A stretch of DNA of 57,627 nucleotides. Origin: Alphaproteobacteria bacterium. GTDB taxonomy: Bacteria > Pseudomonadota > Alphaproteobacteria > Bin95. Below the pieces are notes generated by a model. The model ran no database searches and had not been told where the DNA came from. It saw only the letters and a program-made list of their open reading frames with translations. Positions 1,984-47,236 of the stretch are shown in pieces (the first letter of the stretch is position 1; each line of letters opens with the position of its first letter). The DNA is taken from the NCBI GenBank assembly GCA_022826185.1, contig JAJDVH010000278.1, positions 1-57,627 of the forward strand. Direction: 5' to 3'. The position numbers and the translations under genes were made by a program.

Positions 1984-4900
1984 CCCGGAGCCGCCCGGTC
2001 CTGGAACCTGATCCAGTGGCGTCGGCGCTCGAACGGGTAGTCCGGCAGCGAAGTCCGGCGGCGGCTTTCGCCCGCGAAGAGCCCCGCGAAGGACAAGGCG
2101 AGCCCCGCCTCATAGGCCCTGGCGACCGCGCCCGCGAAGCCGTCGTCGCCCAGGCTGGCCAGAACCACCGGCAGGCGGGCGCTGCCGTTCGCGTCCGGGG
2201 CCCCGCCAGACCCTGTCCCCGGTGCGGCGCCCGGGCCGATCTCGACTATCACGCCGGCGCCGGCCGCGGCCAGCGTACCGACGCAGTTGTCGGAGGGTTC
2301 CGTTCCGGTCGCCGCGCGCTGGCGCCAATACGCCCCGTCCCGTAGCTCATCGGGCCCGAGCGCGCGGCCCGACACGCTGTTGATCAGTGTCAGGCGCGGC
2401 GGGTTCACCGCGATTTCGGCTTGTTCGCCGCCGGGATCGTCGAGGCCGGCAGCCAGGAGCAAGCCATCCTCAAGCCCAAGCACGCCGGCGGCCTGCGCGG
2501 CCGCAAGCTCTCCTGCCCCGTGACCGAGCACGATGCTCGGCTGCACGCCGACGCTCGACCAGAGCGCCGTGAGCGCGCATTCGAGCGCGTAGGCCGCGGA
2601 CCGCTCCCACTGCGGCCGGGCCGGATCTCCCTCCGGGCCCGACCGGCCGAACATCGCGTCCAGCAGCGAGGCGCCGCGCGCGTCGCGAAGCGCCTCATCG
2701 CAACGGTCGAGGACCGCCCGCACGACCGGCTCGCTCCTGTACAACGCCTCACCCGTTCCGGCCCATCCGTTTCCGTGGCCGGCATAGGCGAAAGCAACGG
2801 CTCCCGCCGGCGTCGTCGGTTCGAATCCCTTGCCGGCTTCCGCGAGCGCCCGCAGGCCCCCGCGCAGCGCCTCGCAATCGGCGAACACCAGGGCCGCGCG
2901 GTGGTCGAAGTGACTCCGTCCCGTGCCGGCGGTCCACGCTATGTCGGACAGCGCCGCATCGGACGCCGCCTCTTCCGATGCAAGCACTGACTGGCGTTGG
3001 TCGAGCCATGCAAGATAACGGTCCGCCAGCTTCCGGAGCGATGCATCGGACTTGCCGGAGAGCGGCAGAATCCGCGTTGCGCGCGCAACAAGGCCGTCGT
3101 CCGCCTGCAGCGGCTCCGCGGCGGCATCCATCGGCGGGACGCAGACCGGTCGCGGCGCGCCATCCGGACCGGGCCGGTCGTTTTCCGGATCGCCGTATCC
3201 CTCCACCACGACATGCGCGTTCGTTCCCGAAATTCCGAAGGCGCTGACCCCGGCCCGCAGCGGACGGTCCGGCCGGCGCGGCCAGTCCGTTGCCTCGGAC
3301 ACCACCTTCACGGGCAGCCGGTCCCAGTCCAGATGCGGGTTCGGGTCCCGAAAATGCAGATGCTTCGGGATCACGCCATGGCGCATGGCCAGGACAACCT
3401 TGATCAGCGAGGCGATTCCCGCGGCCGATTCGAGGTGCCCTATATTGGTCTTGACCGAACCGATCAGCAGCGGGCGGTCCTTCTCGCGTCCCCTGCCGTA
3501 AACCGCCGCCGCGGCCTGCACCTCGATCGGGTCGCCCAGAGCCGATCCCGCCCCGTGCGCCTCCAGATAGTCGATGTCCGAGGGAGGAACGCCCGCCTGG
3601 GACAGCGCGTCGTCGATCACCCGTTCCTGTGCGGGGCCGTTCGGCACCGTCGGGCCCGCGCTCACCCCGTTCTGGTTGACCGCCGCCCCCCGGATCACCG
3701 CCCAGATGCGGTCGCCGTCGGCCTCCGCCTCGTCCAGGCGCTTGAGGACCACCATCCCGCAGCCCTCGCTTCTCACGAAGCCGTCCGCCGCAGCGTCGAA
3801 GGTCTTGCACCGACCCTCCCGGGACAACATCCCCAGCTCCGCCATTTCCCGGGTCAGACCGGGCGAGAGGACCGCGTTGACGCCGCCGACCAGGGCGAGG
3901 TCCACCTCTCCGTCCCGCAGGGCAGCGACCGCCTGCTGCACCGTGACCAGCGACGCCGCGCAGTTGAGCATCACCGGCATCGCCGGCCCGGTGAGCCCCA
4001 GTTTGAAAGCGACGCCGCCGACCGCCATGCTGCTTGCCGTGCCGAGATAGTTGAGGCCTTCGCCGCCCGCCGTCATCATCAGATCGCGGTATTCGCTGGT
4101 CGCGATGCCTGCATAGACCCCCGTTCGGCTGCCCTTCAGCCCCTCCGGGTCGATCCCCGCATCCTCGAGCGCACGCCAGCTCGTCTCCAGCAGAAGCCGT
4201 TGCTGCGGATCCATCATGCGGGCGCCGATCGGCGTCATGCCGAAGAAGCGTGCGTCGAAACGGTCGATCTCGTCGACGTAACCGCCTTGCCTCCAGGCGC
4301 CATCCCCGGCCTCCGGGTCGCCGGCTATTCCGGTCCAGGAGCCGTTGTCCCGCCGCGCGTTCGTCACCGCGTCGTGGCCGGCTTCAAGCTGGCGCCAGAA
4401 TGCGGCGATATCCGGAGCGCCGGGAAGCCGGCAGGCCATACCCACAATCGCGAGTCCATCGTCCCCGCTCCGCACCGGCGGTCGCGGGGCCGGGTCGGGC
4501 TGGGCCGGAGCGGCGGATTCCAGTTCGGCCCCGCCGAGCACGTCCGCCAGATGGCGAGCGAGATCGGAGATGGTCGGGAAGTCGAACACGAGCGTGTTCG
4601 GCGCCACGTAGCTGTCGGAAAAGGCCCGGTTGAGGCGATTCCGCAGCTCGACCGCCATCAGGGAGTCCATTCCCAGATCGAAGAACCCTACCGCGGCGGC
4701 CGGCGCCGAAGGCAGCCTCAGCACCGCCTGCACTTCCCGCTGCAGGAAGGACACCAGAAGGTCCTCGCGTCCCGCCGCCGGTGTCGCGGCGAGTTGAGCC
4801 AGCAGGTCTTCCGACGAGGAGGAATCGTCGCCATCGTCCGCAGCGACGGTGAGCAGTTCCTCCAGGACGGACGGACGGCTTGCGAGGGAGTCTCCGAATA

Positions 4901-29194: not shown

Positions 29195-29269
29195 GTCATG
29201 CCCGGACTTGTTCCGGGCATCCATTTCCGCCACCGCGACAGCCCTGAGGGAGATGCCCGGAACAAGTAC
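29195..29269. repeat. Inverted repeat pair of the GGACTTGTTCCGGGCAT family
   Basis: GTCATGCCCGGACTTGTTCCGGGCATCC-type repeat at 29195-29222, and an inverted partial copy (GATGCCCGGAACAAGT) at 29252-29267. The two arms could form a long stem. Repeats with this core are common between genes of alphaproteobacteria. They lie directly after the orphan antitoxin. Confidence 0.7.
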
Positions 29270-29576
29270 ACGGCTGTCCGGTTTAGCCGTCGGGTGAAGG
29301 CGAACGGGGGTTTTGGACGCGCGTAACGGCTCCTGTCCCCTCACTTTCCACCGTGCCTGAATGCGCCCCCTCCGTCATGCCCGGACTTGTTCCGGGCATC
29401 CCCTTCCACCGCTTCCGCTGCACGGCCGCATGGATACCCGGAACAAGTCCGGGCATGACGAGGAGTGGGTTGGGATGCCGGGCGCTGATCCGTGTCCCGA
29501 TCCGACGGAACCCTTTGAAATCCTGTTGCATCCAGGCCATGCGCCCTGTCCGCAAAATCTAAACCGGACAGCCGTG
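29269..29576. mobile_element. MITE-like element with 18-bp terminal inverted repeats
   Basis: CACGGCTGTCCGGTTTAG at 29269-29286 is matched perfectly in inverse by CTAAACCGGACAGCCGTG at 29559-29576. The 308-bp unit has no gene and holds its own inverted pair of the CCGGACTTGTTCCGGG repeat. On both outer sides it abuts pieces of that same repeat (29252-29268 and 29576-29596), as if it had inserted into a repeat. A third AACCGGACAGC lies at about 29697. No target-site duplication was identified with confidence. Confidence 0.45.
29374..29460. repeat. Inverted repeat pair inside the MITE-like element
   Basis: A copy at 29374-29401 and its inverse at 29432-29460 can form a stem of more than 20 bp with a 30-base loop. 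Sequence matches the 29195 copy. A further partial inverse copy is at 29576-29596. The remaining parts of 29170-29725 hold no gene that I can support. Confidence 0.65.
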
Positions 29577-29725
29577 GAACAAGTCCGGGCATGACGAAAG
29601 GGGGAGCGTTCAGGCGTGGCGGAGAGGGGGCGGACCGGAGACGCCGTGCGCTGCCGAACTCCCGATAGACTCCCGACCGGCTCCGCCGAACGGCCGAACC
29701 GGACAGCAATGGACCGTCCCCGCGC

Positions 29726-30397: not shown

Positions 30398-30545
30398 GGC
30401 GCGCGTTCCTGGAGGCGGCGGGGAAGAGCCTTGACAGTCGCCCGTTCGCCGCCGGCGTCAAGGCGCAAGGTTGCGCGGGACGCCGCCCACCCTGTCTTCG
30501 GATAATTTGAAAATTTCCCGAAAAATCTCGGTATTGTTCTCCAAA

Positions 30546-30783
30546 CGGGCTTGACATTTGGCGGTATGGTGTATGATGAAAGTAGAGAGAGGCGGCTTCC
30601 GGGGCCGCCTTTCGGCGTTTCTGCGCAGAAGCATGGCCGGGGCCGAAAAAAGCCCCGGCGGGAACGGACGGGCGAGGTGCGCCCTGCGTCTCGCGCGCGC
30701 AATCAGGTGCGCGAACCGCGCCGGCGCCGACACCCGCCCGCGCCCGCCCGCGCCCGCACGCGAAACGCGCGCAAAACAGGGAC
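30546..30783 (+). repeat. Structured intergenic element, copy 1 (candidate small RNA or leader)
   Basis: Nearly identical to 46832-47062. It opens with TTGACA (30551) and TATGAT (30572), 15 bp apart. Then come a hairpin AGGCGGC/GCCGCCT (30590-30610), a palindrome TTCTGCGCAGAA (30619-30630) and a hairpin GCCGGGGC/GCCCCGGC (30636-30659) with an A-rich loop, followed by a GC-rich tail. In copy 2 the palindrome and last stem differ in sequence but still pair. The sequence upstream is AT-rich in both copies. A transcribed structured RNA is the best reading; a REP-like DNA element is the alternative. Confidence 0.6.
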
Positions 30784-30826
30784 ACCCTGTCCCGCCCTTT
30801 GCTTTGCCCCGAAGGAGGCACCGTTG

Positions 30827-30928
30827 ATGACCGCAACCGGTCCCCGCCCCGGCGGCGAAACCGGCCGCATCGCCGACGCCCGCCGCGGAAACCCCGGCCG
30901 CACTGGCCGGCGGAGTCGGCCCGCATGA
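30827..30928 (+). CDS. Possible 33-residue micro-ORF behind element copy 1
   Basis: GAAGGAGG (30811-30818) sits 8 bases before ATG 30827, a near-ideal ribosome site in a region with no other gene. The peptide is Gly/Pro/Arg-rich (MTATGPRPGGETGRIADARR...). A second short frame overlaps its stop as ATGA (30925-30969, MTEHDISGGPHDGT). Copy 2 of the element is likewise followed by strong ribosome sites and micro-ORFs, though the peptide sequences are not alike. Confidence 0.3.
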   Translation: MTATGPRPGGETGRIADARRGNPGRTGRRSRPA

Positions 30929-30986
30929 CAGAACATGACATTTCGGGAGGGCCGCATGACGGAACATGACAAAACATGACATTTCT
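30924..30986. repeat. CATGACA repeat, copy 2 (five units, phased 10/21/10/10)
   Basis: CATGAC starts at 30924, 30934, 30955, 30965 and 30975, spacings 10, 21, 10 and 10, all close to whole helical turns. The array ends CATGACATTTCTGCAGGGG and is followed by TTTCGACAAGCTCGGGACAGGCTC (31008-31022 region), a dispersed intergenic repeat widely seen in proteobacteria. The rest of 30398-31131 outside the element and array shows no gene. Confidence 0.65.
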
Positions 30987-31131
30987 GCAGGGGTCCCTTT
31001 CGACAAGCTCGGGACAGGCTCCCGATACGGGGCCGGCGCCGCCGCTCGGGTTCTGCCGCATGGCCAGGCTGTTATGGTTGCTGTGGCGGAAGCGGGCGGG
31101 ACAGCGGCTATTGTGCTAAGCTCTGCGCGCA

Positions 31132-31743
31132 ATGGCTGTTCATGTGCATCGCAACGATATTCCCGAAGGCCTGAGCTTCGGCGCGCTGGCGGCGGTCGAT
31201 ACCGAAACCATGGGATTGAAGCCCGCCCGGGACCGGCTCTGCGTGGTGCAGCTTTCGGCCGGGGACGGCCATGCCCATCTGGTCCGGTTCCAGGTCGGCG
31301 AGTATGCGGCCCCGCGCCTGAAGGCCTTGCTTGCGGACCCCGGCGTCACCAAATTGTTTCACTTCGCGCGCTTCGACCTTGCCGTGCTGGAGTGCTATCT
31401 CGGAGTGGCGGCGCAGCCGGTCTATTGCACCCGAACCGCCTCCCGGCTGGTTCGCACCTATACCGACCGGCATGGCCTGAAGGACCTCTGCAAGGAGTTG
31501 CTCGGCATCGAAATGTCCAAGACACAGCAGTCGTCGGACTGGGGCGCGGCGGACCTGACAGGGCCGCAACGGGACTACGCCGCCGCCGATGTGCTGCATC
31601 TGCACCGCCTGAAGGAACGACTCGATTCCATGCTCGCAAGGGAAGGCCGGACGGAACTGGCGGCGGCCTGTTTCGATTTCCTGCCGGTCCGCGCGCGGCT
31701 CGACCTGGAGGGCTGGGCCGAGGAGGACATCTTTGCTCACTGA
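31132..31743 (+). CDS. rnd: Ribonuclease D-like 3'-5' exonuclease
   Basis: A 203-residue DEDDy exonuclease domain: Asp23 and Glu25 in VDTETMGL, Asp82 in HFARFDLAVL, and Tyr149/Asp153 in DYAAADVLHLHRL. It lacks the HRDC domain of E. coli RNase D, as is normal for the short alphaproteobacterial form. It processes tRNA or other RNA 3' ends. Its stop lies 11 bp inside the next gene, beginning a long co-directional block that runs to ptsN. Confidence 0.9.
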   Translation: MAVHVHRNDIPEGLSFGALAAVDTETMGLKPARDRLCVVQLSAGDGHAHLVRFQVGEYAAPRLKALLADPGVTKLFHFARFDLAVLECYLGVAAQPVYCTRTASRLVRTYTDRHGLKDLCKELLGIEMSKTQQSSDWGAADLTGPQRDYAAADVLHLHRLKERLDSMLAREGRTELAAACFDFLPVRARLDLEGWAEEDIFAH

Positions 31744-46782: not shown

Positions 46783-46831
46783 GCCGGCATTCGATGAAAA
46801 CTCTCCGGTGTTTTCATTTTTTGTTCCCGGC

Positions 46832-47062
46832 CGGGCTTGACATTTGGCGGTATGGTGTATGATGAAAGTAGAGAGAGGCGGCTTCCGGGGCCGCCTTTCG
46901 GTGTTTCTGCAGAAAGCGACGGCTGGGGCCGGAAAAAAAGCCCCGGCGGGAACGGACGGGCGAGGTGCGCCCTGCGTCTCGCGCGCGCAATCAGGTGCGC
47001 GAACCGCGCCGGCGCCGACACCCGCCCGCGCCCGCACGCGAAACGCGCGCAAAACAGGGACC
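46832..47062 (+). repeat. Structured intergenic element, copy 2 (candidate small RNA or leader)
   Basis: Matches 30546-30783 almost base for base, in the same orientation. TTGACA is at 46837 and TATGAT 15 bp on. The first hairpin (AGGCGGC/GCCGCCT) is unchanged. The central palindrome is TTTCTGCAGAAA here but TTCTGCGCAGAA in copy 1, and the last stem is GCTGGGGC/GCCCCGGC (one G-U pair) instead of GCCGGGGC/GCCCCGGC. Changes that keep base pairing support selection on an RNA structure. Copy 2 lacks about ten bases of a GC-rich CCCGCGCC tract. Confidence 0.6.
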
Positions 47063-47110: not shown

Positions 47111-47236
47111 ATGCCAGGGACGCAAGGCCGGACAGCATACCCGCAGCCCCGTTCCGAACCGCAGCTTCATGCCCGAAAGGAGCACAGACCATGCCCCAGG
47201 CACATGCCGATCATGACATTCCATGACATTTCGTAA
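47111..47236 (+). CDS. Possible 41-residue micro-ORF behind element copy 2
   Basis: GAAAGGAG lies 7 bases before ATG 47111. The peptide is basic and His/Pro-rich and ends MTFHDIS at TAA 47234-47236. A second start at 47191, with its own GAAAGGAG site, encodes an 11-residue peptide MPQAHADHDIP ending in the CATGACA repeat. Two successive strong ribosome sites in otherwise empty sequence are notable, but no homologue is known to me. Confidence 0.3.
   Translation: MPGTQGRTAYPQPRSEPQLHARKEHRPCPRHMPIMTFHDIS
47212..47232. repeat. CATGACA repeat, copy 3 (two units, 10-bp phasing)
   Basis: CATGAC at 47212 and 47222, followed by ATTTCG as in the other arrays. As at 30924, it lies about 150 bp downstream of the structured element, so element and array appear as a unit twice. 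Confidence 0.6.

Follow-up and report, generated by a model that had tools for sequence, protein, structure and literature searches.

The repeated segment near position 30,546 of the window, by which we mean the whole stretch of 57,627 nucleotides that was analysed, is best explained as one copy of a dispersed, non-autonomous intergenic element of mobile type, namely a small transcription unit whose RNA leader is under selection. We assign this reading a probability of about 0.6. Sequence comparison establishes the architecture of the element, its copy number, its restriction to one lineage, its presence and absence between species, the exchange of sequence between copies, and a pairing constraint on the leader.

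The sequence-only reading had described a unit of about 235 bp (copy 1, 30546-30783) that recurs in the same orientation at 46832 (copy 2), in gene-free DNA, each copy starting with TTGACA-15 nt-TATGAT. The recurrence is confirmed, with 222 of 243 alignment columns identical (92% by BLAST), neither copy overlaps a gene, and the promoter is exact in both. Copy 1 lies between a nitroreductase gene (−) and a gene for an RNase-D-like 3'-5' exonuclease (+), while copy 2 has a TonB-dependent receptor gene (+) on one side and an acyl-CoA dehydrogenase gene (−) on the other, and faces a convergent gene end. The 235-bp unit is thus real, but it is only the left part of the element, which continues via a Shine-Dalgarno sequence (SD) and an ATG to an array of CATGACA repeats (Table 1).

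Judged by its sequence, the complete element is a small transcription unit of ca 0.4-0.8 kb with a promoter, a leader, an SD-ATG-ORF and a CATGACA end. In a full copy, an AT-rich upstream box precedes a sigma70-type promoter, which is followed by the leader of ca 200 nt, the SD with the start codon, and the CATGACA end. An alignment of 70 copies from the same genome has the upstream box TTTCATTTTTTGTTCCC, the promoter, the leader, the SD (GGAGG) with its ATG, and the right end in common; where the upstream sequence is unrelated to the box, it is still mostly AT-rich. Over 125 copies, the −10 hexamer varies mainly among near-consensus versions (TAGAAT in 61 and TATGAT in 42, with TACAAT, TATTAT and others rare), and the spacing to the −35 hexamer is 15 nt in 111. 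The right end, a CATGACA array with 10-bp phasing (CATGACAAAACATGACATTTCATGACA), is present in all subfamilies and in almost every copy not truncated by a contig end. In the three copies examined, the two ends are not linked by an inverted repeat, and no transposase was found inside the element.

Table 1. Positions of the element's parts in the two window copies, and of the alternative pairing in the leader (L219 is a locus outside the window).
Feature	Position	Strand	Basis
Copy 1, AT-rich upstream region, diverged from family box TTTCATTTTTTGTTCCC	30495-30550	+	family alignment, upstream listing
Copy 1, promoter TTGACA-N15-TATGAT	30551-30577	+	sequence; −10 variants and spacing over 125 copies
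Copy 1, leader hairpin H1 (GAGAGGCGGCTT/GGGCCGCCTTTC)	30587-30613	+	fold; pair counts GC/AU/GU
Copy 1, palindrome TTCTGCGCAGAA, minority form, exchanged relative to G003 orthologue	30619-30630	+	orthologue comparison
Copy 1, leader hairpin H2, A-rich loop (GCCGGGGC...GCCCCGGC)	30636-30659	+	fold, family comparison
Copy 1, conserved leader core, match to covariance model R1	30662-30773	+	model and pattern search
Copy 1, near-invariant core CTCGCGCGCGCAATCAGGTGCGCGAACCGCG	30689-30720	+	pattern search
Copy 1, SD GGAGG (30814-30818) and ORF (30827-30928), 33 codons, MTATGPRPGGETGR...	30814-30928	+	
Copy 1, right end, CATGACA repeats, 10-bp phasing	30924-30985	+	sequence, family alignment
Copy 2, AT-rich upstream box TTTTCATTTTTTGTTCCC	46811-46828	+	sequence, family alignment
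Copy 2, promoter TTGACA-N15-TATGAT	46837-46863	+	sequence
Copy 2, structured leader: H1; H2 46922-46947; core 46977-47008; model match 46950-47051	46873-47061	+	
Copy 2, SD (AAAGGAG) and a different short ORF (47111-47236), 41 codons	47098-47236	+	sequence; stop agrees with ORF list
Copy 2, right end, two CATGACA repeats	47212-47228	+	sequence, family alignment
Alternative pairing GTCTCGCGCGCG/CGCGCGCAAAAC, copy 1	30688-30699 with 30766-30777		
Alternative pairing GTCTCGCGCGCG/CGCGCGCAAAAC, copy 2	46976-46987 with 47044-47055		
Alternative pairing GTCTCGCGCGCG/CGCGCGCAAAAC, L219	4000-4011 with 4078-4089		

A covariance model of the 112 conserved positions finds 108 copies in the source genome (G000, 4.48 Mb). 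A 32-mer core pattern with up to three mismatches gives 105 matches there, compared to 0 for the reversed control pattern; the match between the two window copies is therefore far beyond chance. A DNA search of the same genome returned at least 40 scored matches. With the same model, six congeners contain 27-90 copies each, while none was detected in the congener G001 or in the six genomes searched from two sister genera. Counts of the spaced repeat CATGACA-N3-CATGACA are 259 in G000, 53-228 in the six congeners with the element and 1 in G001, with a control count of 0, and a pattern search of three sister-genus genomes gave none. Since the two distributions match, the leader and the CATGACA array belong to one element. 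No family member was found in the viral contigs and phages searched, and the plasmids searched gave just one short, chance-like match. The GTDB relatives with the element are metagenome-assembled genomes (MAGs) labelled Alphaproteobacteria, among them bin95 (MPNF) of the same genus, which a published study describes as a symbiont of the sponge Aplysina aerophoba (PMC5649159). All of the compared genomes are MAGs in many contigs.

We now consider whether the family has moved. At the site of the copy on contig C196, three congeners have only 9-31 bp, compared to 1.1 kb in G000, where the element is accompanied by other repeats; in the family-free G001, no leader follows the gene that precedes this copy. 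Behind the gene that precedes the G000 copy at C171:4151, G004 carries a diverged element in the opposite orientation (L289, 2394-2747), and the stretches read behind the same gene in G001, G002, G005, G006 and G007 contain no element. For the copies on C239 and C266, the empty-site comparison loses synteny downstream. The species differ in which sites carry an element, elements stand in opposite orientations behind the same gene, and the flanks are unrelated; at the level of sequence, this indicates that the family has spread. Many copies are at the same place in the sister genome G003, and the spread is therefore not very recent. No target duplication could be defined and no transposase or recombinase was identified. 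The sequence-only reading had held neutral REP/MITE-like spreading of the copies to be incompatible with its proposal; of this condition, the spreading is largely borne out, but the neutrality is not.

A set of ca 120 non-identical leaders, taken from several species, differs in sequence at the hairpin positions and yet retains pairing there. In at least three leader subfamilies, the same two positions are occupied by different sequences that are self-complementary in each case: the H1 arms are GGCGGC/GCCGCC and GAAGCGGC/GCCGCTTC, and the H2 arms are GCTGGGG/CCCCGGC, GTGCCGC/GCGGCAC, TTCGCGCTG/CAGCGCGAA and CCGTGCCG/CGGTGCGG. One H1 pair is GC in 28, AU in 9 and GU in 8 cases. For H1 and the core hairpin, 97.7% of cells are paired, as compared to 23-59% when slid, and the mean stems H1-H4 are longer than in dinucleotide shuffles. 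In H1-H3, the preference for G-U over A-C also exceeds that in dinucleotide shuffles, which points to RNA of the + strand and not to double-stranded DNA. It is important to note that the leader copies are related and exchange sequence, so that these shuffle and pairing numbers overstate independence.

Taken per sequence, H3 and the core hairpin are not unusual relative to shuffles, although their mean stems exceed them. By column statistics the covariation is modest, and RNAalifold on the whole alignment finds little of it, as the core does not vary and H2 resists alignment between subfamilies. Comparison of orthologues, mostly from the sister genome, gives 4 changes in 320 sites for the core and 263 in 4320 upstream, while the rest of the leader evolves about as fast as the upstream flank. 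Taken together, a constraint on the leader at the RNA level is supported by these comparisons. The earlier proposal of a selected RNA structure hence stands as regards pairing that is kept family-wide and beyond shuffles, but not as regards its proof, which was the compensation seen between two copies.

The changes themselves were described correctly. The first hairpin does not differ between the copies, the palindrome TTCTGCGCAGAA of copy 1 is TTTCTGCAGAAA in copy 2, and the last stem GCCGGGGC/GCCCCGGC of copy 1 is GCTGGGGC/GCCCCGGC in copy 2, a C-G pair becoming U-G. The interpretation as compensatory change has to be abandoned, as the orthologue of copy 1 in G003 (ca 96% identical to the source genome) carries the common TTTCTGCAGAAA form within nearly identical flanks. 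In this orthologue, the 70 bases upstream of the promoter and the core are identical to copy 1, and the 3' leader differs solely by a 10-base indel; the 5' leader is 20% different and has the common TTTCTGCAGAAA and TAGAAT forms. With TTTCTGCAGAAA lying between the same flanks, it follows that the segment in copy 1 was exchanged between copies. The difference between copies 1 and 2 is thus most simply read as an exchanged haplotype, which would have arrived via gene conversion. The middle palindrome is moreover not preserved in every copy (TTTCTGCACAAAG, TTTCTGCAGCAAG). In some G003-like contigs, the flanks of different G000 copies are joined to each other, as either recombination between copies or chimeric assembly would do. 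A general caution is that, where two paralogous copies differ by apparently compensatory changes, these can be haplotypes swapped between copies.

The leader has no match in Rfam 15 at either the gathering or the E-value threshold, and no tRNA or tmRNA was found. An intrinsic terminator at H1 was considered and dropped after a terminator scan, and attC/integron cassettes, retrons and IscB/omega-RNA elements were likewise dropped, with no Rfam match and no nuclease ORF. It can also be observed that the core arm GTCTCGCGCGCG has two possible partners, one inside the core hairpin and the other, CGCGCGCAAAAC, a short way upstream of the SD (Table 1), which would allow two alternative folds of the leader.

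The ORF behind the SD has the form MTATDPRPxLAAxLAARLAPAAEALA... and is complete (ca 200-211 aa) in few copies, e.g. G000:C20:11219. Between species, the dN/dS of intact copies is mostly 0.2-0.6, and the protein has therefore been selected in some lineage of copies. In most copies the ORF is truncated, deleted or frameshifted while the promoter, leader and right end persist; the 33-codon ORF of copy 1 is such a decayed version of the ca 210-aa ORF. Other subfamilies, and also window copy 2, have different short ORFs behind the same leader. The intact ORF has no match to a Pfam or NCBIfam family, and against PHROGs there is only a weak match to PHROG 31793 (E=1.5e-4), which has no assigned function. 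Homologues outside the genus are limited to weak matches, at least some of them of low complexity.

A mechanism consistent with these data can be outlined. The housekeeping-type promoter, which is probably active, would drive transcription of the structured leader of ca 200 nt, followed by the SD and ATG, the short ORF and the CATGACA end. The leader would fold in the mRNA and control how the element's own transcript is translated or how stable it is. The CATGACA array, a putative binding site, may bind a protein that copies or moves the element, and gene conversion would then homogenise the copies.

Several other explanations have to be weighed against this one. That the copies form a functional regulatory family, selected as host promoters and 5' leaders or as multi-copy trans-acting RNAs and spread by duplication as useful, we regard as unlikely. 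The conserved promoter and leader and the many copies in the same place in the sister species speak for it, as does the orientation, which agrees with both flanking genes in 24 cases and opposes both in 7 (p=0.003, with crude gene calls), the downstream gene being co-directional with the element in 40 of 60 cases. The same bias would, however, be left by selection against antisense insertions. The neighbouring genes examined are unrelated, including a uvrA-like gene beside L145; copy 2, as noted, faces the end of a convergent gene, and the element carries a decaying ORF of its own. The decay of the ORF also bears on a protein-coding family, in which selection acted on the ca 210-aa protein together with its own promoter and 5' leader, the remaining copies being pseudogenes that gene conversion keeps similar. 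The dN/dS values and the conserved SD and ATG agree with such a family, but loss of the ORF in most copies with retention of the promoter, leader and CATGACA end, together with the unrelated short ORFs in other subfamilies, makes it quite improbable.

The stand-alone, trans-acting small RNA gene family originally suggested is very unlikely. The promoter followed by stable hairpins, and an A-rich stretch in or after H2, would suit it, but the unit runs on from the leader into the SD, ATG and ORF, no Rfam family matches, and in 30400-31140 a simple scan of the + strand detected nothing resembling a terminator beyond the hairpins. Because the predicted RNA runs into the ORF, it is better understood as a 5' leader than as a small RNA of its own. 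There is, finally, barely any chance that the family is an artefact of collapsed or chimeric repeats in the metagenome bins. Although the genomes are many-contig MAGs, several of their contigs end at or near the element, and bin95 has the smallest N50 of its study (PMC5649159), dozens of copies are internal to their contigs and have kilobases of flanking DNA, bins produced separately for six congeners give the same picture, and orthologous copies match together with their flanks.

Returning to the mobile-type transcription unit, it should be pointed out that the sole clean empty site involves a 1.1-kb block which contains other repeats as well. As regards classification, the leader resembles a structured cis-regulatory mRNA leader in that it shows conserved structure with compensatory changes, in H1 and H2 across subfamilies, and has an SD and start codon directly downstream. 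The element is small, dispersed, present in many copies and non-autonomous, as MITEs are; it has no terminal inverted repeats, and for this reason we do not file it as a MITE.

In kind, it is best filed, by analogy, beside QMITE1 and the Correia elements as a small dispersed repeat of mobile type. QMITE1 of Coxiella burnetii, the source of the small RNAs CbsR3 and CbsR13, is likewise dispersed (ca 50 copies of 300-400 bp) and shared between strains, with sigma70 promoters, strong RNA folding and short peptides (PMC5896051). It has, however, terminal inverted repeats of 21-28 nt and an IHF site (PMC5896051), whereas the present element lacks such repeats, has unlike ends (leader on the left, CATGACA array on the right) and a predicted transcript that enters an SD-ATG-ORF. 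The Correia repeat enclosed elements/NEMIS of Neisseria share the >100 intergenic copies, promoters, RNA hairpins and small ORFs, but are 105-155 bp long with inverted repeats of ca 24 bp and a TA target duplication (PMC2229807, PMC5039591), and differ in sequence and host group and in having no CATGACA array. The CIR repeats of Caulobacter and Brucella are also alphaproteobacterial, intergenic and without typical terminal inverted repeats (PMC2229807); they are set apart by their description, being defined by a methylation-site motif with no ORF listed (PMC2229807). The TAACTGA repeats of Beggiatoaceae resemble CATGACA as heptamer direct repeats at >100 intergenic sites in a marine bacterium, but lie just upstream of start codons as proposed translational binding sites (PMC4679880), whereas the CATGACA arrays form the 3' end of an element with promoter and leader.

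A bolder proposal, which we consider unlikely, is that the family represents a new class of mobile transcription unit, a bacterial counterpart of SINEs. Such an asymmetric selfish element, with ca 100 copies in one genus of sponge symbionts, would need the structured RNA and the phased CATGACA array, instead of inverted repeats and a transposase, for its spread.

The unlike ends, lack of inverted repeats and conserved RNA of the present element call for a route of mobilisation other than the usual one of MITEs. A genus-wide repeat with ca 100 near-identical promoters and structured leaders across one symbiont genome would also alter the expression of neighbouring genes, drive rearrangement and break metagenome assemblies.

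A few further observations concern the element's surroundings. Two different copies are followed, ca 20 bp beyond their CATGACA ends, by group II introns (RF02005; L241, 3573-3797, −; L243, 4202-4426, +). Exactly behind GCGCGCAATCAG of one element core lies an insertion sequence of the IS110 family with Transposase_20 and DEDD_Tnp_IS110 domains (L285, in G003:C196; ORF 60-1220, −), and the core may thus be an IS110 target, as REPs are elsewhere. Further repeat families (GGCTGGGCCCCGGCTCGG..., CCGTTGGTATCA) fill the intergenic block beside the element at L219 4480-4860, and another dispersed family, at 29253-29623 in the window, occurs several times in congeners, sometimes near the element. Divergent subfamilies, finally, share a recurring 15-codon ORF of fixed length, MPERxxxYAxxA(W/C)R(S/T), whose stop lies at the first CATGACA repeat (e.g. 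MPERTPEYAPRAWRT, MPERAIEYAPSAWRS and MPERDIEQALYAWRT; L203, L213, L226, L244, L249 and others). This candidate ORF may encode a micropeptide or may be a by-product of a local DNA hairpin.
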